From Sphingomonas telluris (GTDB lineage Bacteria; Pseudomonadota; Alphaproteobacteria; Sphingomonadales; Sphingomonadaceae), in assembly GCF_022568775.1 (NCBI RefSeq), contig NZ_JAKZHW010000002.1:633501-697500 (forward strand): a DNA stretch of 64,000 nucleotides, given 5' to 3'. The position numbers and the translations under genes were made by a program. Position 1 is the first letter of the stretch; each line of letters opens with the position of its first letter. This document shows positions 47,969 to 59,240 of the stretch, in pieces. Below the pieces are notes generated by a model. It saw nothing but the letters and a program-made list of their open reading frames with translations, did not search any database and had not been told where the DNA came from.

Positions 47969-48306
47969 AGCAGGCTAAGGCTCACGAACAGGCCCAGAAG
48001 GGCAAGTCCGGCCGCAATCACCCCAAATCCCATCATCAGCCAGTAGCCGATCGGGCTGGTTTCGCGACTGCAAATCCGTGAGCCCCACTCCTTGAACTCT
48101 CTCTTCTGCCAACTCCAAGTGAGAGACAGCGCGATTCTCAGAAACGCCGTCGCGCAAAAGATGGCGAAGACGTATGGGAAGACGTTGCCGAAAAAGAGGC
48201 TCATCAACGAAACCGGCAGAAGAACGAGCGTCGCGAGGACGCTGGCTGCAAGGACTCGTGCAAACCACGGCCGGTCTACAAAGGTATATTGTCGTGCTTC
48301 TTCCAT
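47965..48306 (-). CDS. Small membrane protein of the pccB cluster
   Basis: 113 residues with three hydrophobic segments ([60 protein letters not shown]). The N-terminus overlaps the end of pccB by 31 bases, and the stop overlaps the OsmC start. Family unknown; the coupling suggests one transcript pccB, this gene, osmC-like, mce, esterase. Confidence 0.68.
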
Positions 48307-49808
48307 GGGTTCTCGAGCTGCTTGTTCCTCAGCTTTCGTAGCCCCAAGGCAACCCGCCGCCGCGTGGAGTGGGGCATGATCACCTCGTCGATGAAGCCCT
48401 TGCTCGCGGCCACGAAGGGGTTGGCAAAGCGCTCTTCATATTCGGCGGTGCGCGCAGCGATCTTTTCGGCATCGCCGATGTCCTTGCGGAAGATGATCTC
48501 GACCGCGCCCTTGGCGCCCATCACCGCGATCTCAGCGGTCGGCCAAGCGTAGTTCAAGTCGCCGCGAAGGTGCTTGGATGCCATAACGTCATAGGCACCC
48601 CCATAGGCCTTGCGGGTGATGACGGTGATCTTCGGGACGGTTGCCTCGGCATAGGCGAAGAGCAATTTCGCGCCGTGCTTGATGATGCCGTTATGCTCCT
48701 GCGCGACGCCAGGGAGGAAGCCCGGCACGTCGACGAAGGTCAGGATCGGGATCTCAAACGCGTCGCAGAAGCGCACGAAGCGCGCGCCCTTCTTCGACGA
48801 GTTGATGTCGAGGACGCCCGCCAGCACCATCGGCTGGTTGGCCACGACGCCGACGGTGCGGCCCTCGATGCGGCAGAAGCCGATGATGATGTTCCCGGCG
48901 TGGCCCGGCTGAACCTCGAAGAACTCGCCCTCGTCGGCGACCTTCCGGATCAGCTCGTGCATGTCGTACGGCTGGTTCGCGCTCGGCGGGATCAAAGTGT
49001 CGAGGCTCTCGTCGAGGCGGTCCCATGGGTCGCTGCAGGGTCGCTCGGGCAAATCGTGCCGGTTCGACAGCGGCAGGAAGTCGAAGAATTCGCGGGTGGC
49101 GAGGAGAGCGTCGATGTCGTTCTCGAAGGCCACGTCGGCGACGCCCGACTTGGTCGTGTGGGTGATGGCTCCGCCCAGCTCTTCCTGGGTCACCACCTCG
49201 TTGGTCACGGTCTTCACCACGTCCGGGCCAGTGACGAACATGTAGGAGCTGTCCTTCACCATGAAGATGAAGTCCGTCATTGCCGGCGAATAGACCGCGC
49301 CGCCCGCGCACGGGCCCATGATCAGGCTGATCTGAGGGACGACGCCGGACGCGAGCACGTTGCGCTGGAAAACCTCGGCATAGCCCGCGAGCGAGGCGAC
49401 GCCCTCCTGGATGCGCGCACCGCCGGAATCGTTGAGGCCGATGACGGGGGCACCAACCTTCATCGCCATGTCCATGACCTTGCAGATCTTCTGGGCGTGG
49501 CGCTCGGAAAGCGAGCCGCCGAACACCGTGAAGTCCTGCGCGAAGACGTAGACGAGGCGGCCGTTGATCGTGCCGGAGCCGGTGACCACGCCGTCGCCGG
49601 GGATCCGCTGGCTCTCCATGCCGAAGTCGACGCAATTGTGCTCGACGTACATGTCATATTCTTCGAAGCTGCCCTCATCGAGGAGGACGCTGAGGCGCTC
49701 CCGGGCCGTCAGGCGGCCCTTGGCATGCTGGGCTTCGATGCGCTTCTCGCCGCCGCCGAGCTTGGCCGCATCGCGGCGCTTTTCCAGTTCTTCGATGGTT
49801 GTGGCCAA
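48276..49808 (-). CDS. pccB: Propionyl-CoA carboxylase, carboxyltransferase beta subunit
   Basis: 510 residues of the crotonase-like carboxyltransferase fold, with oxyanion motifs [20 protein letters not shown] and [16 protein letters not shown] in the N-half and [17 protein letters not shown] and [10 protein letters not shown] in the C-half. It transfers carboxyl from biotin of PccA to propionyl-CoA. The gene runs opposite to pccA and mutase, but together with mce they encode the complete methylmalonyl-CoA route. The 260-base gap at its 5' end is shared with the divergent glycosyltransferase operon. Confidence 0.95.
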
Positions 49809-49846
49809 GGCCGATCTCCTTGGGCCCGCCTCCTTCCACGACGGCC

Positions 49847-49871
49847 GGAACGGGTCAATGCGGGAGACGTT
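49847..49871 (+). promoter_or_regulatory. EcfG-type promoter, distal
   Basis: GGAAC at 49847-49851, 16 bases, then CGTT at 49868-49871 exactly match the alphaproteobacterial general-stress (EcfG) pattern GGAAC-N16/17-CGTT. It reads toward the glycosyltransferase operon, about 200 bases from its start, and crosses the pccB 5' region in the opposite sense. It would give a longer leader than the proximal site. Confidence 0.55.
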
Positions 49872-49996
49872 TACTGAGGGTCGATCTTGAATAGTGCGTC
49901 AGGCCGCGGGCCTGTATTCCGCGCTTTGTCGCTCCCGACTCGCAGCTTGGCTTATGTTGCGCTGCACAACCCGTGATTTTGATTAACTTTGATCAA

Positions 49997-50028
49997 GGTT
50001 CCGGAACCGTAACCGCTGAATCCCCGTT
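49997..50028 (+). promoter_or_regulatory. EcfG-type promoter, proximal, with overlapping palindrome
   Basis: GGAAC at 50003-50007, 17 bases, then CGTT at 50025-50028 exactly match the EcfG pattern. The predicted start near 50035 leaves a leader of about 34 bases with AGGAGG at 50053-50058 before the ATG at 50069, a normal layout. The -35 element lies in a perfect 12-base palindrome GGTTCCGGAACC (49997-50008), which could let another protein bind. Confidence 0.65.
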
Positions 50029-50068
50029 GGACAGACAAGTTTCCAACAAACAGGAGGTTACACGCGAA

Positions 50069-51286
50069 ATGCTGACCAGCGCCGGGGTCCCCACAGTGTC
50101 TGAAGCCGAACCCACGGCGCCCGATCAAGCACGCCCAACTCTCCTGTGCTTTTCGCACCTGCGGTGGGACTTCGTTTTCCAGCGCCCGCAGCATCTCATG
50201 AGCCGCTTCGCGCGCGACATGACGGTGGTGTATTGGGAAGAGCCGATTGAGATCGGGGATCGCGAGACTGCCTTCCTAAAGGTCCGTCAGGCCGACGACT
50301 TCCCGAACGTCCGGGTCGTCACGCCGCATCTTCCCGCGCGCCTCAATGATGAGCAGCGCGAGAATGCCTTGCGCCGCCTGCTCGACGCCCATGCGGCCAG
50401 CCTCGTTCGTCCGCTGGTGACCTGGTACTACACGCCGATGATGCTGCCGTTCTCGCGGCATCTCGACGCCAGCGCCGTCATCTACGACTGCATGGACGAG
50501 CTTTCGAAGTTCCGCTTCGCGCCGGAGCGCCTGCTCGACCTGGAGCAGGAGCTGATCGATCGCGCCGACCTCGTCTTCACCGGCGGCGCGAGCCTCTACG
50601 AAGCGAAGAAGAGCCGCCATTCGTCGGTGCACTGCTTCCCCTCGTCCGTCGACCGCGCCCACTTCGCAAAGGCGCGTAAGGAACTTCCGCAGCCCGCCGA
50701 CCAGGCCGAGCTGAAGCATCCGCGCCTGGGCTTCTACGGCGTCATCGACGAGCGCTTCGACATCGACCTGCTGCGTGAGATGGCCGACCTTCGGCCCGAA
50801 TGGTCCTTCGTGATGGTCGGCCCGGTCGTGAAGATCGGCGAGGACGAGCTGCCGCGGGCAGCGAACATCCACTACGTCGGCGGCAAGACCTACGAGCAGC
50901 TCCCGGCCTATCTGTCGGGCTGGGACGTCGCGCTGATGCCGTTCGCGATGAACGAGTCGACCCAGTTCATCTCGCCGACCAAGACGCCTGAGTATCTGTC
51001 GGGCGGAAAGCCGGTGGTCTCGACCCCGGTTCGCGACGTCGTCCGTTCGTACGGACACCTCCAGGGCGTGCACATCGCGCACGATGCGGACGGCTTCGTC
51101 CGCTGCTGCGAGAAGGCGCTCGAGCAGTCTCATGAGGTCGAGGGCGACTGGCTCGCTGAAGCGGATCTCCTGCTGTCGGCGACGAGTTGGGATACCACCC
51201 AGGCGCGCATGGCCGGGCTCATCACCGAGGTTCTTGGCGAGCGCACCGCTCGTGAGACCTCCGCTCTGCTGGTGGCCGCAGAATGA
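50069..51286 (+). CDS. Glycosyltransferase (GT1/GT4-like)
   Basis: 405 residues from the ATG at 50069 with AGGAGG upstream; the frame back to 49973 is not used. The N-terminus has SHLRWDFVFQRPQHLMSRF, typical of a subfamily of GT-B glycosyltransferases. The C-terminal donor domain includes PFAMNESTQFISPTKTPEYL (donor-binding Glu region) and GGKPVVSTP. It probably transfers a sugar to a lipid or polysaccharide at the inner membrane. The next gene makes UDP-galactofuranose, so Galf or a related sugar is a plausible donor. It overlaps glf by four bases. Confidence 0.85.
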   Translation: MLTSAGVPTVSEAEPTAPDQARPTLLCFSHLRWDFVFQRPQHLMSRFARDMTVVYWEEPIEIGDRETAFLKVRQADDFPNVRVVTPHLPARLNDEQRENALRRLLDAHAASLVRPLVTWYYTPMMLPFSRHLDASAVIYDCMDELSKFRFAPERLLDLEQELIDRADLVFTGGASLYEAKKSRHSSVHCFPSSVDRAHFAKARKELPQPADQAELKHPRLGFYGVIDERFDIDLLREMADLRPEWSFVMVGPVVKIGEDELPRAANIHYVGGKTYEQLPAYLSGWDVALMPFAMNESTQFISPTKTPEYLSGGKPVVSTPVRDVVRSYGHLQGVHIAHDADGFVRCCEKALEQSHEVEGDWLAEADLLLSATSWDTTQARMAGLITEVLGERTARETSALLVAAE

Positions 51287-52467
51287 ACGCGTTCAGCTTC
51301 ACTCCGCCCGGCGAGCCCAAGCGCTACGACTATCTGATCGTCGGAGCCGGTTTTGCCGGCTCCGTTCTTGCTGAGCGTCTTGCAAGCCAGCACGGAGCGC
51401 GCGTCCTGCTCATCGATCGTCGCGAGCATGTCGGCGGCAATGCCTACGACGAGCCGAACGACGCGGGCATCCTGTACCACAAGTACGGACCGCACATCTT
51501 CCACACGAACAGCGAGCAGGTCTTCGAATATCTCTCGCAGTTCACCCAATGGCGGCCGTACGAGCATAAGGTGCTTGCCCACGTGCGCGGGCAGCTGGTG
51601 CCGATCCCCATCAACCGGACGACGCTGAACAAGCTGTTCGACCTCGATCTTCAGACGGATGAGGAGGCGGCCGACTATCTGGCGTCGCGTGCCGAGCCGG
51701 TCGAGGACATCCAGACGTCGGAAGACGTGGTCATCAACTCGGTTGGACGCGAGCTCTACGAGCTCTTCTTCCGCGGCTACACCCGCAAGCAGTGGGGCCT
51801 CGATCCGTCGGAGCTCGACAAGCAGGTGACGTCGCGCATCCCGACGCGGACGAACACGGACGACCGCTATTTCGGCGACACGTTTCAGGCGATGCCGCTG
51901 GAGGGCTACACGAAGATGTTCGAGCGCATGCTCGACCATCCGCTGATCGACATCCGCACCGGCGTCGATTTCGCCGAGCTGAAGGACCAGGCGTTCGAGA
52001 TCGCCGATCACCTGATCTACACGGGACCGATCGACGAATATTTCGACTTCCGTTTCGGCAAGCTGCCCTACCGCAGCCTGAAGTTCGATCACCAGACCCT
52101 GGAGCAGGAACAATTCCAGCAGGTCGCGGTGGTGAACTATCCGAGCGAGGACGTGCCGTTCACCCGCATCAGCGAGTACAAGCACCTCACCGGGCAGGAA
52201 GCGCGGGTGACCACCATCACCTACGAATATCCGTCGGCCGAGGGCGATCCCTATTATCCGATCCCGCGGCCGGAGAACCAGGAACTTTTCAAGAAGTACG
52301 AGGCGCTTGCCGACGCGACAGAAAACGTGACTTTCGTGGGCCGGCTCGCGACCTATCGCTACTACAACATGGACCAGATCGTCGGGCAGGCGCTCGCGAC
52401 CTTCCGCCGCATGGAAGAGAAGCTGGACAAGGAGCGGCCGCAGCCGACAGCGGTCGCAGCCGAATAA
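51283..52467 (+). CDS. glf: UDP-galactopyranose mutase
   Basis: 394 residues. FAD-binding begins YDYLIVGAGFAGSVLAERL, and HVGGNAYDEP, YGPHIFHTN and the LPYRSLKFDH segment are UGM-specific. It interconverts UDP-galactopyranose and UDP-galactofuranose, the donor for galactofuranose in bacterial glycans. The gene overlaps the glycosyltransferase stop by four bases and the next start by one (TAATG), so expression is tightly coupled. Confidence 0.95.
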   Translation: MNAFSFTPPGEPKRYDYLIVGAGFAGSVLAERLASQHGARVLLIDRREHVGGNAYDEPNDAGILYHKYGPHIFHTNSEQVFEYLSQFTQWRPYEHKVLAHVRGQLVPIPINRTTLNKLFDLDLQTDEEAADYLASRAEPVEDIQTSEDVVINSVGRELYELFFRGYTRKQWGLDPSELDKQVTSRIPTRTNTDDRYFGDTFQAMPLEGYTKMFERMLDHPLIDIRTGVDFAELKDQAFEIADHLIYTGPIDEYFDFRFGKLPYRSLKFDHQTLEQEQFQQVAVVNYPSEDVPFTRISEYKHLTGQEARVTTITYEYPSAEGDPYYPIPRPENQELFKKYEALADATENVTFVGRLATYRYYNMDQIVGQALATFRRMEEKLDKERPQPTAVAAE

Positions 52468-54653
52468 TGGACGCCCGGGCCCCCACGAAGGGCCTGGGCT
52501 CCGCTCCACCACTCGAATTGTGGGGCGGGGTCGAGTGCAGCATCGTGCGCATCGGAGACGATTACCGAAACCAGGTAGTCGACACGGGCCATTCCTGCAG
52601 GCTGGACGATATCGACACGATTGCCGAGCTCGGCGTCAAGGCGGTCCGTTACCCGATTCTCTGGGAATCCGTTGCGCCGGAAAGCCCCGGCGAGCTGGAC
52701 TTTACGTGGCACGACGAGCGGTTGAAGCGCCTCCGCGACAAGGGCGTGAAGGTGATCGCGGGGCTGGTGCATCACGGGTCGGGCCCGCGATATACGAGCC
52801 TGCTCGATCCGAATTTCCCTGACCAGCTTGCCGATTATGCTTCGCGGGTCGCCCGTCGATATCCCTGGATCGACATGTGGACGCCGGTGAACGAGCCGTT
52901 CACAACGGCGCGCTTCTCATGCCTCTACGGCCATTGGTATCCGCACCGGAAGGACATCGATTCTACCTTCCGGGCGACGGTGAACCAATGCCTCGCAACG
53001 CTTCGAGCGATGCGCGCCATCCGCATCGTCAGCCCGGAGTCGAAGCTCATTGCGACCGAGGACATCGGCAGGACCTTTTCGACGCCGGAGCTCGCGTACC
53101 AGGCGGAGCATGACAACGGCCGTCGCTGGCTGACCTTCGACCTTCTCTTCGGGCGCGTCGTCGAGGGCCACCAGTTCCGACGGTGGCTGCGCAACAAGGC
53201 GGCGTCGGAGGAGGTGCTGGAAGAGCTGGCGACGGGAGAGGGCCGTCCCGACATTATTGGGTTCGACCATTACCTGACCAGCGATCGGTTCCTCGATCAC
53301 CGGGTCGAACGCTATCCGGGCGTCGAGCACGGGTCGAACGGACAGCACAGCTACGTGGACGTCGAAGCGGTTCGCATCGACAAGCTCCGCCCTCGTCTCG
53401 GTCCTGGCTTGCGCCTTCGAGAGACCTGGGAACGATATCGAACGCCGATCGCAATCACGGAAGTGCATCACGGCTGCACCCGCGAAGAGCAGGTGCGGTG
53501 GCTGCATGAAATGTGGTCGGCAGCCGAGCGGGAGCGAGCCCGCGGCGTGGACATTCGCGCAATCACACTTTGGGCGCTGTTCGGAATGATGGACTGGCGT
53601 TCGCTGCTGACCAGGCGGGAAGGCGATTATGACGTGGGCGCGTTCGACACGCGCTCCGAAACGCCGCGTCCAACGCTGCTGGCCAAGGCGGCAGCGCAGC
53701 TCGGCCGTGGTGAGCAGTTCGAGCATCCCGTCCTCGATCTGCCCGGTTGGTGGAAACGCCCCGGCCGAACTCACGCCCGTCGCCGCTTCGAGACCTTGCC
53801 GCGACAGGCGGTGAAGGCGCGACCAATCCTGATCACCGGCGCAACCGGAACGCTTGGGCAGGCCTTTTCACGGCTATGCGCGCATCGCGGCCTGGCGCAC
53901 GTTCTCACCAGCCGCGGCGAACTCGACATTTCCGACGAAGCGTCGATCGCTGCGGCGCTCGAACGCTACCGGCCATGGGCAGTCGTCAACACGGCCGGGT
54001 TTGTCCGGACCTGGGAGGCCGAGCAGAAGGCCGACGAATGCTTCCGCGCGAATGTGACGGGTCCCGAGCTACTCGCGTCCGCATGCAAGCTGCATGGCAT
54101 TCCGCTTGTCACTTTCTCGTCGGACCTCGTGTTCGACGGAAAGCTGGGCCGTTCCTACGTGGAGCCGGACGCAACTGCGCCGGTCTGCGAGTACGGACGG
54201 AGCAAGGCCGAGGCGGAGGCTCGCCTCATGGCCATCGACGCCGATGCGCTGATCGTGCGAACCAGCGCTTTCTTCGGCCCTTGGGACCGCCACAACTTCC
54301 TCGTGAACACCGTCGAGCGGCTCGTCCGCGGCGAAGATGTTTTCGCGAGCGCTAAGACCATCGTCTCGCCGACCTACGTGCCGGACCTCGTACACGCGAC
54401 GCTCGACCTGCTGCTGGATGACGAGAAGGGGATCTGGCACCTTACCAACCAAGGATCGGTGAGCTGGCACGAGCTCGCACAGGCGGTCGCCGATCGCGCG
54501 CGTCTCGACGTGGGCAGGATCATCGTTCCCCAGGTGGACGAGCCGTCGGACACCAGCCTGACGAGCAAGCGCGGATTGCTGCTGCGACCGCTCGACCGCG
54601 CGCTTGACGATTTCGCCATCCATTCGGAATCGCTAAGCGCGCTGAACCGCTAG
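52467..54653 (+). CDS. Fused GH1-like glycosidase and RmlD-like sugar-nucleotide reductase
   Basis: 728 residues. Residues about 15-430 are a GH1-type TIM barrel with the acid/base VNEP (about 143) and the nucleophile-like ITEVHHG (about 332). Residues about 452-728 are an RmlD-like NAD(P)-binding domain with ITGATGTLGQAF, FSSDLVFDG and YGRSKAE. The join (KRPGRTHARRRFETLPRQ) is a short basic linker and the reading frame is continuous. A glycosidase fused to a sugar-nucleotide reductase is uncommon. Both catalytic sets look intact. It may trim and remodel a sugar during glycan assembly. It lies between glf and a PhyH gene. Confidence 0.88.
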   Translation: MDARAPTKGLGSAPPLELWGGVECSIVRIGDDYRNQVVDTGHSCRLDDIDTIAELGVKAVRYPILWESVAPESPGELDFTWHDERLKRLRDKGVKVIAGLVHHGSGPRYTSLLDPNFPDQLADYASRVARRYPWIDMWTPVNEPFTTARFSCLYGHWYPHRKDIDSTFRATVNQCLATLRAMRAIRIVSPESKLIATEDIGRTFSTPELAYQAEHDNGRRWLTFDLLFGRVVEGHQFRRWLRNKAASEEVLEELATGEGRPDIIGFDHYLTSDRFLDHRVERYPGVEHGSNGQHSYVDVEAVRIDKLRPRLGPGLRLRETWERYRTPIAITEVHHGCTREEQVRWLHEMWSAAERERARGVDIRAITLWALFGMMDWRSLLTRREGDYDVGAFDTRSETPRPTLLAKAAAQLGRGEQFEHPVLDLPGWWKRPGRTHARRRFETLPRQAVKARPILITGATGTLGQAFSRLCAHRGLAHVLTSRGELDISDEASIAAALERYRPWAVVNTAGFVRTWEAEQKADECFRANVTGPELLASACKLHGIPLVTFSSDLVFDGKLGRSYVEPDATAPVCEYGRSKAEAEARLMAIDADALIVRTSAFFGPWDRHNFLVNTVERLVRGEDVFASAKTIVSPTYVPDLVHATLDLLLDDEKGIWHLTNQGSVSWHELAQAVADRARLDVGRIIVPQVDEPSDTSLTSKRGLLLRPLDRALDDFAIHSESLSALNR

Positions 54654-54669
54654 GCCTGCGCGAGGACAT

Positions 54670-55497
54670 ATGGTGCGCACGGAAACCTCCTTCGATGTCG
54701 CCAGCATCATGGGCGGACTTTACGGCGACGGCATCATCGCGCTGAAGGGCGCCTTCACTCCCGACTGGGCCGACGTTCTTCGCGAAGAGATCATGGCCCT
54801 GTTCGAGGAGGCGCGGAAAATCGAGGGCGGAGCGCTGCCGCGCGGTCCGGAGCGCTGGTACGTCGAGGTCCAGCCAGAGCGGATCAGCGGCTTCGTCGAC
54901 ATCGCCACGCACCCGTGGTTCGTCTCGGTCTGCGAGGCCCTGCTCGGCCCCGAGTACAAGATCGTGGAAATCGGGTTCGATATCCCGTTCCCCGGTGCGC
55001 AGGACCAGCCCTGGCATCGCGACTTTCCGTCGCCGCCGGAAACGCTCGAAGGACGCAGGCTCAACTCGCTCGCGTTCAACCTGACTGCCATCGACTCGAG
55101 GCCGGAGCATGGGGCGTTCGAGATCGCTCCTGGCACGCAGTGGGACGACATACGCGGCTGCAAGAACGACATGTTTCCGCCGAGGGAGCTATGGGACCGC
55201 TACATCGAGCGAGCAGTGCCCAAGCTGCCGCAGCGCGGTGACATCTCGGCCCGCTCTGCGCTGACCATCCACCGCGGCACTGCCAACCGCTCCGACGAAC
55301 CGCGGCCAGTCCTGGTCGTGGGCGTAGACGCGCCCGACGGAATCAACGCGAAGCATCACGATCTGCAGGTCACACGCGCCTATCTCGACAGCCTGCCCGC
55401 GCAGGTGCGGGATCATCTGACCTATCGCGTTGCGGATGAACTGGAACCGGTGATCCAGCACCATGTGATCGAAGGGCTGCTGGAGCCCGACTACTGA
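54670..55497 (+). CDS. Phytanoyl-CoA dioxygenase (PhyH)-family protein
   Basis: 275 residues of the Fe(II)/2-oxoglutarate oxygenase double-stranded beta-helix. Proposed iron ligands are the His and Asp of QPWHRDFP and the His of ALTIHRGTANRS, with Arg nearby for 2-oxoglutarate. It probably hydroxylates a small molecule, lipid or sugar nucleotide. The gene follows the fusion gene by 16 bases and ends the operon. PhyH proteins in sugar-coat operons may modify a sugar or lipid carrier, but this is inference. Confidence 0.85.
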   Translation: MVRTETSFDVASIMGGLYGDGIIALKGAFTPDWADVLREEIMALFEEARKIEGGALPRGPERWYVEVQPERISGFVDIATHPWFVSVCEALLGPEYKIVEIGFDIPFPGAQDQPWHRDFPSPPETLEGRRLNSLAFNLTAIDSRPEHGAFEIAPGTQWDDIRGCKNDMFPPRELWDRYIERAVPKLPQRGDISARSALTIHRGTANRSDEPRPVLVVGVDAPDGINAKHHDLQVTRAYLDSLPAQVRDHLTYRVADELEPVIQHHVIEGLLEPDY

Positions 55498-55498
55498 T

Positions 55499-56488
55499 CT
55501 ACTCGTCCCACTTGTGATGCTCGGCCCAGACGCGGCGGACCGTTCCCGAGCTTGCGCGCATCACGATGCTTTCGGTAGTCAGGCAGTTCTTCCGGCGGTG
55601 AACGCCCTTCAGAAGCGATCCGTCCGTCACGCCCGTCGCGGCGAAGATGCAGTCGCTCTTCGCCATGTCCTCGAGGTTGTAGATGCGGTCGAGGTCTTCG
55701 ATCCCCCAGCGGCGCGCCCGGCCGATTTCATCGTCGTTGCGGAAAACCAGCCGGCCCTGCATCTGCCCGCCCACACAGCGTAGAGCCGATGCCGCGAGCA
55801 CGCCTTCCGGAGCGCCTCCGCTGCCGATGTAGATGTCGATGCCGGTGGCGGGGTCCGTGACTGCAATCACGCCCGCGACGTCGCCGTCGGAGATCAGCTT
55901 CACGCCGCAGCCCAGCGAACGAAGCTCGTCGATGATGGCGTCGTGCCGATCACGGTCGAGGACGCAGGCGATAATCTCATTCGCCGGCACGCCCTTGGCC
56001 TCGGCGAGCGAGCGGACATTGTCGGCTACGCTGCGCGAGAGGTCGACCGTGCCTTCGGCATAGCCCGGGCCGATCGCCAGCTTCTCCATGTAGGTATCGG
56101 GGGCGTTGAGCAGGCCGCCCTCCTCGGAGATGGTAAGGACGCACAGAGCGTTCGGTCCGGCCTTGGCCGTCAACGTCGTCCCTTCGAGCGGATCGAGCGC
56201 GATGTTGATCTTGGGGCCCGTGCCCTGCGCGGAGCCGACCTTCTCGCCGATGTAGAGCATCGGGGCTTCGTCGCGTTCTCCCTCGCCAATGACGACCGTC
56301 CCGTCGAACGGAAGCTCGTTGAGCGCCTCGCGCATGGCTTCGACGGCCGCTGCATCGGCCGCATCATTATCGCCGCGCCCGATCCACTTCGACGCCGCCA
56401 CGGCGGCGGCTTCGGTCACTCGGACCATCTCGAGGACCAGGACTCGATCGAGAACGTGGGACGCCGGAACACGGGGGCTACGAAGCAT
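55499..56488 (-). CDS. glpX: Class II fructose-1,6-bisphosphatase
   Basis: 329 residues from the ATG at 56488; the longer frame is unsupported. GlpX motifs are WIGRGDNDAADAAAVEAMR, VIGEGERDEAPMLYIGE (metal Glu and Asp), DPLEGTTL and IGSGGAPEGVLAA. It hydrolyses fructose-1,6-bisphosphate in gluconeogenesis. It converges on the PhyH gene with one base between stops. The upstream gap of 65 bases before the DUF2721 gene could hold its promoter. Confidence 0.94.
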   Translation of the reverse strand: MLRSPRVPASHVLDRVLVLEMVRVTEAAAVAASKWIGRGDNDAADAAAVEAMREALNELPFDGTVVIGEGERDEAPMLYIGEKVGSAQGTGPKINIALDPLEGTTLTAKAGPNALCVLTISEEGGLLNAPDTYMEKLAIGPGYAEGTVDLSRSVADNVRSLAEAKGVPANEIIACVLDRDRHDAIIDELRSLGCGVKLISDGDVAGVIAVTDPATGIDIYIGSGGAPEGVLAASALRCVGGQMQGRLVFRNDDEIGRARRWGIEDLDRIYNLEDMAKSDCIFAATGVTDGSLLKGVHRRKNCLTTESIVMRASSGTVRRVWAEHHKWDE

Positions 56489-56553
56489 AAGAATGCGGTC
56501 TCCTGTTGCCACGGGCGATAGGAGCCACCCGTGACCTTGTCGAGGCAGGCCGC

Positions 56554-57024
56554 TTACTCCTCGACGGCATGCTCCAGCAGCTCGGAGCGAATGCGAACTG
56601 CTCGCGCGGCGACCTGGGTCTCCCACAGGAAAATGGCGAAGCCGGAGCCGATGGCAATCATCGAAGCGATGAAGAGCAGGGCTACCGCGGTACCGAAGTG
56701 GGCATGCGCGAGCGTCGCCGCGAACAGCAGCACGACGACCATGCAAATGAGGAGGGCCGAGAGGACGGTGAGGAAGATCGCCCGGCTGACCAGGCGTATT
56801 CGCCGGTCGAGGACCCGGAGGTCGGCCACGATGCGATCGTGCTCCGTGCCCCGGCTGGCGAGAAGCAGCGGCTCCAGCACCCGGCCGCGATCGATGATCC
56901 GCGCGAGCCGAGTGGCGCAAACGTTCAGGAAGGCGCCGATGCCTGCCAGCAAGAACACCGGCGCGACCGACAGCTGAATGATCTGCGCAACCGTTGCGAC
57001 GGAGGTCGGTGAGGTCGAGAGCAT
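56554..57024 (-). CDS. DUF2721-family membrane protein
   Basis: 156 residues with a hydrophobic segment near the start (IIQLSVAPVFLLAGIGAFLN), a polar loop (RLARIIDRGRVLEPLLL, DLRVLDRRIRLVSRAIF), then two more membrane helices. This is the DUF2721 pattern; function unknown. It is on the same strand as glpX and the fucosidase gene, 24 bases downstream of the latter. Confidence 0.82.
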   Translation of the reverse strand: MLSTSPTSVATVAQIIQLSVAPVFLLAGIGAFLNVCATRLARIIDRGRVLEPLLLASRGTEHDRIVADLRVLDRRIRLVSRAIFLTVLSALLICMVVVLLFAATLAHAHFGTAVALLFIASMIAIGSGFAIFLWETQVAARAVRIRSELLEHAVEE

Positions 57025-57048: not shown

Positions 57049-58608
57049 TCATGCTGCCAATCCGGCACCGTCGATACGAAGGACCGGCACGAACTTGTCG
57101 CCCGCCGGTGGAAGCGTGAGCCTCAGCGCGTCGCGGGTCTGCTGGAAGGCGAGCGGCGGCCCGCCAAGCAAGGTGACGCGCTCCACACGGCCGCTCGCAG
57201 AGCCGAGCGAGGCGATCGCGACCTCGCTGGACGGCCAGTCGAGCAGAGCCGCGTAGAGCGTGCCACACTTGGCCGTGAAGCGGATGTCGTCGGCGACGAA
57301 GGGCTTGGCCTCACCTTCGGCCATCACGCCGAGCGGCGGCTTGGTCGGGCCTTCGCCGAAGCGTCGCCAAGGCCGGCTGCCGTAGATGGCCTCGCCGTTG
57401 ACCCGGAACCATGCGGCGAGGTCGTCGAGGATGCGCTCCTCCTTGTCGTCGATGGCGCCATTGCCGCGAACGGGAATGCTCAGCAGCAGGCATCCGTTCT
57501 TCGACACCACGTCGGCAAGGCGCTGCACCACCTGCTTCGCGCTCTTGTAGCCGCCGCGCTCGTACAGCGGGCGATCGTAATGCCAGTTGCCGATGCACGT
57601 GTCGGTCTGCCACGGGCGCGGCTGGATATCGGCGACGAAGCCACGCTCGACGTCCTCGACGATGATCCTGCGCTGCTCGTCGGTCAGACGCTTGGCGGTG
57701 AGTACGCCTTCGGGCGCGTGGGCGTAGAAATCGCGCATGGCGTCGAGGCCCATGGGGCCGAAAGGGATGCCATAATCGTCGAAGTAGACGAGGTCCGGAC
57801 GATATTTTGCGACGAGGTCCTTCTGGCGGAGCAGCCAGTTGCTCACGAACGCCGGGTTTTGGGGCGCGTCCTCCAGCCACTGGCCGTCGCGAGCGCCGTG
57901 CCAGTCGTCCATCGCCTTGATCGTGTCGATCCCATCGGGCGGGACGAAGCTCGGCCCGGTGTAGAGGTCCTGCGGATCGAGGCCGTCCCACCACGTGCCC
58001 GCGCCATGCTTCTTGCGCAGCCAGAAGGCGTCGTAGCGCCGGCCCTTCAGCGGTCCATCGGCGTCGTATCCATAGGCTGTCTGCCACCAATGCCAGGCGT
58101 GACCGCTGTGGTTGGAGACGCCGAACTTCAGGCCGGCCTGTCGCGCCAGCTTCTCCCACGTCCCGACGATGTCGCGCCTGGGGCCGGCACGCACGCTGTT
58201 CCAGCCTTGGTGCGTGCTGTCGAACATGTCGAAATTGTCGTGGTGATTGGCCATCGCCATGAAGTATCTGGCGCCGGCCTGCTTGTAGCGGCGGAGCAGA
58301 TATTCCGGCTGCCATTCCTCCGCCTTCCAGCGCCCGATGATGTCGAGGAAGCCGGTCTTGCTCGGATGGCCGTAGGTGCGGACGTGATGCTCGTATGCTG
58401 CGTGGCCCTGCACGTACATGAGCCGCCCATACCAATCGCCCATCTCCGGAACGCATTGCGGGCCCCAGTGCGCCCAGATCCCGAACTTGGCGTCGCGGAA
58501 CCAGTCCGGGACTTCGGTCGGCTGCAGCGTCTCAGCACGGAGGCCGGTAGCAGAACTCGCCAGCAGTGCGGCGGCCCCCGCGGCGATGCTGTCCCTTCTT
58601 GAGAACAT
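57049..58608 (-). CDS. Tat-exported alpha-L-fucosidase (GH29)
   Basis: 519 residues from the ATG at 58608. The N-terminus has a twin-arginine signal (SRRDSIAAGAAALLAS). The GH29 barrel shows WFRDAKFGIWAHWGPQCVPE, the HHDNFDMFDS motif and the nucleophile region LVYFDDYGIPFG (Asp). It would remove alpha-L-fucose from glycans outside the cytoplasm after folding in it. No ribosome-binding site is obvious. It is not close to other fucose genes, and its divergent neighbour is an M15-like peptidase gene. Confidence 0.9.
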   Translation of the reverse strand: MFSRRDSIAAGAAALLASSATGLRAETLQPTEVPDWFRDAKFGIWAHWGPQCVPEMGDWYGRLMYVQGHAAYEHHVRTYGHPSKTGFLDIIGRWKAEEWQPEYLLRRYKQAGARYFMAMANHHDNFDMFDSTHQGWNSVRAGPRRDIVGTWEKLARQAGLKFGVSNHSGHAWHWWQTAYGYDADGPLKGRRYDAFWLRKKHGAGTWWDGLDPQDLYTGPSFVPPDGIDTIKAMDDWHGARDGQWLEDAPQNPAFVSNWLLRQKDLVAKYRPDLVYFDDYGIPFGPMGLDAMRDFYAHAPEGVLTAKRLTDEQRRIIVEDVERGFVADIQPRPWQTDTCIGNWHYDRPLYERGGYKSAKQVVQRLADVVSKNGCLLLSIPVRGNGAIDDKEERILDDLAAWFRVNGEAIYGSRPWRRFGEGPTKPPLGVMAEGEAKPFVADDIRFTAKCGTLYAALLDWPSSEVAIASLGSASGRVERVTLLGGPPLAFQQTRDALRLTLPPAGDKFVPVLRIDGAGLAA

Positions 58609-58679
58609 GTTGTGTTTACTAATGATTGTTCGCCCCCTCGCAGGGGTGTAAGTAAGAGCCGCTGAGCGGGGGCTTTGCA

Positions 58680-59240
58680 ATGACTCGATTCGCTATCGGG
58701 CTGGTGTTGGTGATGGGCGCATCCGCCGCCAATGCGCAGGCTACGGACTTCGGAATTCGAACGGTTGATGGACGACGCGCTGTCGTCGAGGTCGCGGTTC
58801 ACCAGAAGGCTGGAACCATGGACAGCGCCACCGTGCAGGCCGCCGTGGCTCGTGAGCCTGCGGGCTCCTCCGCCTCATGGGCGCCGATCGGCGGCTCGGG
58901 CAATCTCAGTTCGGCGGCTCGTCTCGGCGACAACTGGGGCCGGGTGACGAGCACGCTGCGCTCACCCGCGCATAATCGGGCGGTCGGCGGCGTCCCGAAC
59001 AGCTATCACCTCCGCGGACGCGCGATCGACATCGCCCGCCGGCCCGGCGTCACGCACGCCATGATCGCGGCGGCGTTCCGCAATGCGGGATACAGGCTCG
59101 TGGAGTCGCTCGACGAGGGGGACCACAGCCACTTTGCCTTCGCATGGGGCGGAGGATCGCGGACGATCGCTGCGCTTCCCGACAAGCGCGAGCTCACGCA
59201 GTGGGGCGTCGTGACGGTTTCCAGCGCGCTGCTGCGCTAG
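58680..59240 (+). CDS. Exported M15-like (D-Ala-D-Ala carboxypeptidase-type) protein
   Basis: 186 residues with a signal peptide (MTRFAIGLVLVMGASAANA). The zinc motifs of the Peptidase_M15_3 type are recognisable: LRSPAHNRAVGG, SYHLRGRAIDIA (His and Asp ligands) and DHSHFAFAWG (terminal His pair). It probably cleaves peptidoglycan stems or a similar peptide. The stop is one base from the end of the convergent aminotransferase gene. The start lies 71 bases from the fucosidase ATG. Confidence 0.82.
   Translation: MTRFAIGLVLVMGASAANAQATDFGIRTVDGRRAVVEVAVHQKAGTMDSATVQAAVAREPAGSSASWAPIGGSGNLSSAARLGDNWGRVTSTLRSPAHNRAVGGVPNSYHLRGRAIDIARRPGVTHAMIAAAFRNAGYRLVESLDEGDHSHFAFAWGGGSRTIAALPDKRELTQWGVVTVSSALLR

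Follow-up and report, generated by a model that had tools for sequence, protein, structure and literature searches.

The general stress response rests on an established mechanism in which PhyR releases EcfG from NepR. UDP-galactopyranose mutase (UGM) is familiar mainly from surface glycans, and the plant SFR2-type galactolipid galactosyltransferase provides the case of a glycoside hydrolase family 1 (GH1) enzyme that acts as a transferase under stress. According to the main text of the regulon study of S. melonis (PMC6599016), the EcfG regulon motif in that organism is GGAAC-N17-20-GTT, the regulon includes other glycosyltransferase/exopolysaccharide genes (#3506-#3509), and a considerable share of EcfG-regulated genes has no known function. 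The term 'galactopyranose' is absent from the main text of that paper, and neither 'galactopyranose' nor 'glycosyl' appears in the main texts of the corresponding papers on Sphingopyxis granuli and S. meliloti (PMC7083833, PMC6180224). Here we describe an operon from a soil-type sphingomonad with a 3.03-Mb genome, located in a 64,000-nucleotide (nt) stretch of contig NZ_JAKZHW010000002.1 (the window), in which a glycosyltransferase (GT), a UGM and a protein fusing a GH1-like to an RmlD-like domain lie behind a conserved EcfG-type promoter sequence. On balance, the operon appears to encode a general-stress-induced pathway to a galactofuranose (Galf)-containing glycoconjugate, with the GH1-like domain as a biosynthetic partner. 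The initial annotation had supposed such a module to be undescribed, and no description was found among the titles and passages of open-access papers returned by literature searches on EcfG, UGM and the fusion. Throughout, L numbers denote the loci compared and G numbers the genomes, G000 (contig C2) being the genome that holds the window.

A conserved core of transferase, mutase and fusion protein

The operon comprises four open reading frames (ORFs) on the plus strand, identified from the ORF list, Pfam and NCBIfam as a GT, a UGM, a GH1-like/RmlD-like fusion and a PhyH-family protein (Table 1). The database assignments thereby confirm the gene identities proposed in the initial annotation, which had further described the genes as same-strand, mostly overlapping and forming a four-gene unit. 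The shared strand and two overlaps were borne out, GT and UGM overlapping by 4 nt (ATGA) and UGM and fusion by 1 nt (TAATG), whereas PhyH starts 16 nt past the fusion stop with no overlap. The start of the fusion at 52467 is consistent with a 728-residue copy in the database. Comparison of gene order in sphingomonads likewise upheld the linkage of GT, UGM and fusion and placed PhyH outside it: the core unit is three genes, and PhyH is a local addition.

To follow this linkage, relatives of the fusion were sought at E 1e-100 in 298 genomes of the family, and GT relatives were drawn likewise. A fusion relative is present in 27 genomes, with the match spanning both domains in 22, and the GT is present in 54, including all 27 with a fusion relative and all 22 with both domains (Fisher 1e-23 and 7e-19, respectively, with kinship ignored). 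The order GT-UGM-fusion is kept in 11/11 close relatives that retain the upstream part; other sphingomonads have the fusion in divergent orientation to GT-UGM across a common intergenic region, or at another place. Across the class the GT was found in only 5 of 385 genomes, the window's genome counted, and independent lineages were therefore drawn mainly from plasmid records. Twenty-five of these records contain a fusion match, 19 of them over at least 80% of the protein (five in Deinococcus, four in Caballeronia, three in Sphingobium, two in Sphingomonas and one each in Microvirga, Azospirillum, Gloeothece, Novosphingobium and Runella) and six over the GH part (Ensifer three, Mesorhizobium two, Deinococcus one). 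Mesorhizobium AR02 and Ensifer W2-B9 keep the order GT-UGM-GH. Fusion relatives also lie on genome contigs of Caldimonas, Desertivirga and a Flaviaesturariibacter metagenome-assembled genome, so that beyond the family they reach Deinococcus, a cyanobacterium, Bacteroidota and Burkholderiales. Azospirillum thermophilum (L109) carries two GH1-RmlD fusions on opposite strands, approximately 3.3 kb apart, only one of them adjoining a GT.

The UGM belongs to its family by both profiles (TIGR00031, 417 bits against a cut-off of 303.75; GLF domain PF03275, 283 bits), and a genome search identified it as the sole UGM over the cut-off. The GT shows a distant likeness to TuaH, scoring 85.8 bits against profile NF047676 and thus falling short of the cut-off of 550 for a TuaH assignment, and its SHLRW and QRPQ motifs are invariant in an alignment of 33 sequences. 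In 17 of the 28 loci that have both genes, including that of Gloeothece, GT and UGM are encoded in one frame with no stop between them; they are separate genes in the window's genome and its nearest relatives. Because of these shared polypeptides and the presence of a single UGM, it is likely that the GT uses a Galf donor.

An EcfG-type promoter sequence precedes the core genes

The window contains exactly two GGAAC-N16/17-CGTT matches, both inside the 260-nt gap at 49809-50068. The initial annotation had interpreted them as two promoters and considered a pair in one gap unlikely by chance. That estimate was not borne out, as dinucleotide shuffles of the window yield a mean of 1.03 matches and at least two matches in 27 of 100 cases, and of the two promoters only the proximal one, 66 to 41 nt upstream of the GT ATG, proved to be conserved. 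When the window is aligned with L033, L030, L031 and L070, all five sequences share an identical proximal GGAACCG, whereas the distal GGAAC is unique to the window (the closest relative, L033, reads GGCAC) and the distal CGTT sits in a stretch missing from the other four. Since it has no counterpart in the aligned relatives, we rejected the distal match as a second promoter, and its occurrence is probably due to chance.

It is the conservation across relatives that places the proximal site above chance. Scanning from 330 nt upstream to 30 nt inside the GT, we found GGAAC-N17/18-GTT in 26 of 28 alphaproteobacterial loci, compared with 1/28 for the reversed pattern, and in 14 of 16 alphaproteobacterial GT upstream regions outside the close relatives; none of six non-alphaproteobacterial loci has it. 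The 28-locus set includes one GT fragment (L115), its two misses are L087 (at a contig end) and L095, and left out of the count were the cut loci L037, L039 and L077, L117 (which repeats L033) and, as short duplicates, L040-L051 and L078-L086. Eleven close relatives, ten of them same-genus genomes and the other the Sphingomonas locus L031, can be read upstream of the GT; a site lies at -62 to -90 in all but L074 and L075, which have one only at -162 and -170, respectively, and L072 has one at each distance. A further 43 GT upstream regions, from 42 family genomes, contain the site in 23 cases, with 2, 0, 2 and 0 occurrences of four control patterns and 5 in antisense; this set holds the GT upstream regions of six of the 26 fusion genomes other than the window's own, which were not taken as fusion loci. 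Newly counted named loci carry the site in 7/9 Alphaproteobacteria (two from Sinorhizobium meliloti, two from Rhizobium and one each from Skermanella, Azospirillum brasilense and Agrobacterium larrymoorei) and in 0/4 others, and of four further class members three have it and the fourth has no readable upstream region. Where the fusion heads its own unit, its upstream region has a site in 8/21 alphaproteobacterial loci and in 1/4 of the others. The gap between GT and fusion in L099 (G185) contains an overlapping EcfG-type site readable both ways, GGAACCGTTATCTCCCTGCAAGGTT and its complement, which could possibly function as a bidirectional stress promoter.

The same genome encodes PhyR, NepR and an HWE kinase together in one locus, with three GGAAC-N17/18-GTT sites within 10 kb around it. 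This locus and the conserved proximal site together support the general-stress (EcfG-type) control proposed at the outset; transcription of the operon is very probably EcfG-dependent, and this prediction is the strongest part of our interpretation. None of the 28 Sinorhizobium plasmid records with GT-UGM, many of which carry no strain name, is one that we would presume to be S. meliloti 1021. The RpoE2 data for S. meliloti 1021 may therefore not cover GT-UGM and were set aside as evidence.

The fusion protein retains the catalytic residues of both domains

The fusion consists of a divergent GH1-like domain (approximately residues 16-430) and an RmlD-like reductase domain (approximately 452-690), with no signal peptide apparent at its N-terminus when read by eye. 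In GH1 enzymes the residues corresponding to Glu143 and Glu332 serve as acid/base and nucleophile, respectively. Both glutamates are invariant wherever the aligned sequences extend over them (46/46 and 47/47), and the reductase tyrosine and lysine are kept in 46/47 and 45/48 sequences (numbering in this conservation alignment equals that of the 728-residue protein plus 1). With 51.2 bits against PF00232 (gathering score 22.6) the first domain belongs to GH1, and with 63.7 against the beta-glucosidase equivalog TIGR03356 (cut-off 478.5) it lies outside that equivalog. An AlphaFold model of the fusion, built with 17 sequences, reached a mean pLDDT of 75.4 and a pTM of 0.77, and Foldseek matched it to RmlD structures and also to the T. 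maritima GH1 enzyme, the latter with a TM-score, by target, of up to 0.67.

A second GH-type domain, which shares 22-26% identity with the GH1 part of the fusion, occurs at 11 of 13 additional named GT loci (L120-L132), including that of the query, A. brasilense L123; among these 13 it was not found at the GT loci of D. ficus and D. deserti. In Skermanella, A. brasilense and S. meliloti it starts with GGFEC, for which the equivalent in the fusion is GGVEC. In rhizobia, Azospirillaceae and Pantoea this domain goes with the same GT: it is a lone protein in two Azospirillaceae, is joined to a GT4 domain in S. meliloti and Paracoccus, and in Pantoea soli (L130:5870-9598) forms a 1242-residue chain with the same GT and an amine-oxidase-like flavoprotein domain. 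In D. gobiensis it is found in another gene approximately 4 kb before the GT. Beside the second GH-type domain, S. meliloti, Aureimonas and Agrobacterium encode a GT4-Gfo/Idh/MocA-alcohol dehydrogenase protein. Glycosyltransferase-annotated proteins of approximately 1060-1130 residues adjoin the GT in L120-L121, L124, L126, L131 and L132, and the three scanned with Pfam (L120, L124 and L131) show this domain arrangement. Time and again, in one fusion or another, a GH-type domain thus accompanies a transferase and a mutase or related flavoenzyme, often together with an NAD(P)-type oxidoreductase.

The intact GH1 glutamates would also be expected if the GH1-like domain hydrolysed a stress glycoside and the reductase recycled the sugar, GT-UGM being a co-promoted neighbour, and further glycoside hydrolases near some loci (GH5-like, weakly GH43-like and GHL10) fit such turnover or salvage. 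However, the fusion never occurs without the GT in the 27 family genomes, and other lineages have the related GH-type domain joined to transferases, which makes this explanation improbable. Of the roles considered for the GH1-like domain, a biosynthetic one fits best, although the case for it is finely balanced.

PhyH and the surroundings of the operon

The fourth gene product belongs to the PhyH family (PF05721, 46.1 bits against a gathering score of 22), with HRD and IHRG motifs that align with kanamycin B dioxygenase. Its closest solved relatives by sequence are likewise kanamycin B dioxygenases, enzymes whose substrate contains a sugar (PDB search, E 6.7e-6). We rejected PhyH as a core gene because it occurs in 18/71 genomes of the genus, adjoins the fusion in two of 15 loci inspected (the window's genome and G757; three PhyH genomes fall outside this set of 15) and has no GGAAC site within 400 nt upstream in any of the 15. 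PhyH co-occurs with the fusion (7/12 vs 2/25, p 0.002), a weak link, and eight metagenome contig sizes are common to the listed fusion and PhyH homologues (119 each), compared with a mean of 0.6 and a maximum of 3 in a shifted control. This suggests a subclade in which PhyH joined the operon.

Table 1 Features of the operon and its flanks, in window coordinates.
Feature	Position	Strand	Evidence
Carboxyltransferase gene, divergent, 5' of the cluster	48276-49808	minus	
GGAAC-N16-CGTT, distal match	49847..49871	+	without counterpart in four aligned relatives
EcfG-type promoter sequence, GGAAC-N17-CGTT, proximal	50003..50028	+	conserved in relatives
Shine-Dalgarno-like AGGAGG for GT	50052..50057	+	sequence
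Glycosyltransferase (GT), group 1 type, 405 aa	50069..51286	+	PF13692
UDP-galactopyranose mutase (UGM), 394 aa	51283..52467	+	TIGR00031, PF03275
Fusion protein, 728 aa	52467..54653	+	Pfam, structure model, Foldseek, conserved catalytic positions
GH1-like domain of the fusion	52512..53756	+	Glu143 (NEP) and Glu332 (ITEV) kept; WGGxEC near N-terminus
RmlD-like short-chain dehydrogenase/reductase domain and C-terminal tail	53820..54650	+	Tyr576-x3-Lys580, SSD motif
PhyH-family 2-oxoglutarate dioxygenase, accessory	54670..55497	+	PF05721
Class II fructose-bisphosphatase gene, convergent, 3' of the cluster	55499-56920	minus	

The genes of the operon form a glycan-type set, as the initial annotation had held, and one way to account for them is that under stress the cell makes a surface glycan (capsule, O-antigen or exopolysaccharide decoration), which would place Galf on its outside. 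Surface glycans are the usual setting of UGM, and an ABC exporter (ABC_membrane, ABC_tran) directly follows the module in Skermanella (L122) and A. brasilense (L123), the only two such cases among the annotated plasmid loci read. The glycosyltransferase/exopolysaccharide genes listed for the S. melonis regulon in the main text of PMC6599016 point in the same direction. Against a surface glycan, a Pfam scan of the operon and three flanking genes, not extended genome-wide, revealed no export or polymerisation gene, and such genes were likewise missing from ten recurrent or notable neighbours scanned, a weak argument given that genes for Wzx, Wzy or initiating transferases, not sought genome-wide, may lie elsewhere. 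On the whole, we consider a surface location less likely than not.

Several loci, from different phyla, have stress-related genes nearby, which are reported as plain occurrences without a background rate. Genes of the KGG type adjoin the locus in L032, L073 and D. ficus, the label in L032 and L073 resting on similarity to the D. ficus gene so named in its record. Ferritin-like genes occur near the locus in Mesorhizobium, Ensifer and Microvirga (DUF892, Pfam) and, by record annotation, in Runella and near GT-UGM of D. ficus, and cyanophycin synthetase is encoded near the locus in L089, D. ficus and D. deserti. The Paracoccus locus has Ku/LigD and GroEL nearby, and the Agrobacterium locus a catalase and a general stress protein. 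Across the 47 loci compared, families other than those of the module reach at most four loci once the close relatives are set aside. A family of approximately 370 residues lies near the module in L100, L092, L118 and L038, all outside the close relatives, and is GH5-like by Pfam in the two members scanned (L092 and L118). The downstream histidine phosphatase and NAD(P)HX dehydratase genes, present in about half of the close relatives, were taken as ordinary neighbours.

Close to the operon lies an alpha-L-fucosidase gene (57049-58680, minus strand), and the S. daechungensis record has two alpha-L-fucosidase pieces annotated at the equivalent position. In this record (L033/L117; NZ_CP060781.1, 'plasmid p_unnamed1') GT and fusion are frame-broken, and the linear 'plasmid' has genes in common with the window; another S. 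daechungensis fusion copy has 721 residues and lies on a 2.98-Mb contig (P0019). The 'plasmid' may be a piece of chromosome from an error-prone assembly.

A candidate pathway to a galactofuranose glycoconjugate

In the stress-induced Galf pathway that we favour, RNA polymerase with EcfG would transcribe GT-UGM-fusion from the proximal promoter after PhyR has freed EcfG from NepR. UGM would turn UDP-galactopyranose into UDP-Galf, from which the GT would transfer Galf to a cytoplasmic acceptor or to one at the inner membrane face. On the same product the GH1-like domain could perform transglycosylation or trimming, and the RmlD-like domain would reduce a keto-sugar; as the genome has RmlB and no RmlC, this substrate need not be a rhamnose precursor. 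The outcome would be a stress-protective glycoconjugate, either a glycolipid or a small glycoside.

Several observations weigh against this pathway. Genome-wide, the EcfG pattern is not enriched (29 occurrences vs 54 for the reversed form), for which reason counting was dropped and conservation used instead. The exact site is lacking in 20 of the 43 further GT upstream regions and in those of Aureimonas and Paracoccus, and the promoter sets contain related genomes, so that the counts are not independent by descent. As for the core genes, 27 of the 54 GT-bearing family genomes have no fusion at E 1e-100, and five of the 27 fusion matches (G089, G169, G230, G241 and G290) extend over the GH part and over hardly any or none of the reductase, which indicates that the reductase is dispensable somewhere. 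Lastly, rmlC is commoner in genomes with the fusion (21/27 vs 129/271, p 0.004), and is present in 16 of the 22 genomes in which the fusion has both domains (p 0.04), so that a link to rhamnose is conceivable in those fusion genomes that carry rmlC.

This association would fit a rival reading in which the fusion is a conventional dTDP-rhamnose enzyme carrying a spare glycosidase, and its RmlD part is the rhamnose reductase of the cell. The domain does belong to the RmlD family (PF04321, 186 bits), the fusion is the best rmlD match in the genome (187 bits; the next, at 52 bits, is RmlB) and RmlB is present. Yet the domain scores 184.3 against TIGR01214, below the cut-off of 224.05 for the RmlD equivalog, no RmlD in the genome exceeds its cut-off, and no rmlC was detected in the window's genome at 1e-3, so that the RmlC expected alongside an RmlD equivalog is missing. 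At E 1e-40 five other fusion genomes also lack rmlC, making 6/27, and a separate RmlD-like match exists in the same-genus fusion genomes G007, G008, G009, G010, G020, G029 and G032. The one RmlB over the cut-off is an orphan (L197/L203, G000:C1 at approximately 375 kb) beside an IS110-type transposase and pilus chaperone/tip genes. With TIGR01214 under its cut-off and rmlC absent from the window's genome, rhamnose synthesis is disfavoured, and a plain rhamnose enzyme with a spare glycosidase is very improbable.

Returning to the Galf pathway, a bolder version, which we put forward tentatively and with some doubt, is that the genes form a mobile stress cassette, which Alphaproteobacteria would share with Deinococcus, a cyanobacterium, Bacteroidota and Burkholderiales and which would have come under EcfG repeatedly in Alphaproteobacteria. 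Here the GH1 fold would act as a biosynthetic transglycosidase, with a UGM-coupled transferase and a sugar reductase dedicated to the pathway as its partners in making a Galf glycoconjugate, a hitherto unrecognised protectant against desiccation or oxidative stress. The promoter, the gene order and the protein fusions all point to a defined, widely conserved candidate pathway and thus make a role of Galf in stress survival testable via the single UGM. If true, the pathway would also clearly exemplify how a glycoside-hydrolase fold can be tied to a transferase with a biosynthetic role.

Comparison with known systems

With the EcfG regulon the operon has in common the GGAAC-N16/17-CGTT sequence at promoter distance and the presence of PhyR and NepR in the genome, and glycosyltransferase genes are members of the S. 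melonis regulon as well. It differs in its UGM, which the main texts for S. melonis, Sphingopyxis granuli and S. meliloti do not mention, and in that regulation is predicted here from sequence. Like the glycan loci that contain Glf (UGM), the operon combines a UGM over the curated cut-off with an adjoining glycosyltransferase, but it has a stress-type promoter, a GH1-like/reductase fusion as its third gene and no export or polymerisation gene inside. The reductase domain resembles RmlD (PDB 1vl0, 3sc6) in fold, in its SSD/STD-type motif and in YxxxK; in contrast to RmlD, it scores under TIGR01214, is part of a fusion and occurs without RmlC in 6/27 genomes. The likeness to SFR2 is an analogy only, drawn without comparing sequences, and concerns a GH1 transferase acting under stress. 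Finally, the GH1-like domain shares its fold and both catalytic glutamates with the GH1 beta-glucosidases (Thermotoga maritima, PDB 1od0/2j78), whereas it is 15-18% identical to them in the structural matches, scores under TIGR03356, is fused to a reductase and is genetically tied to a transferase.

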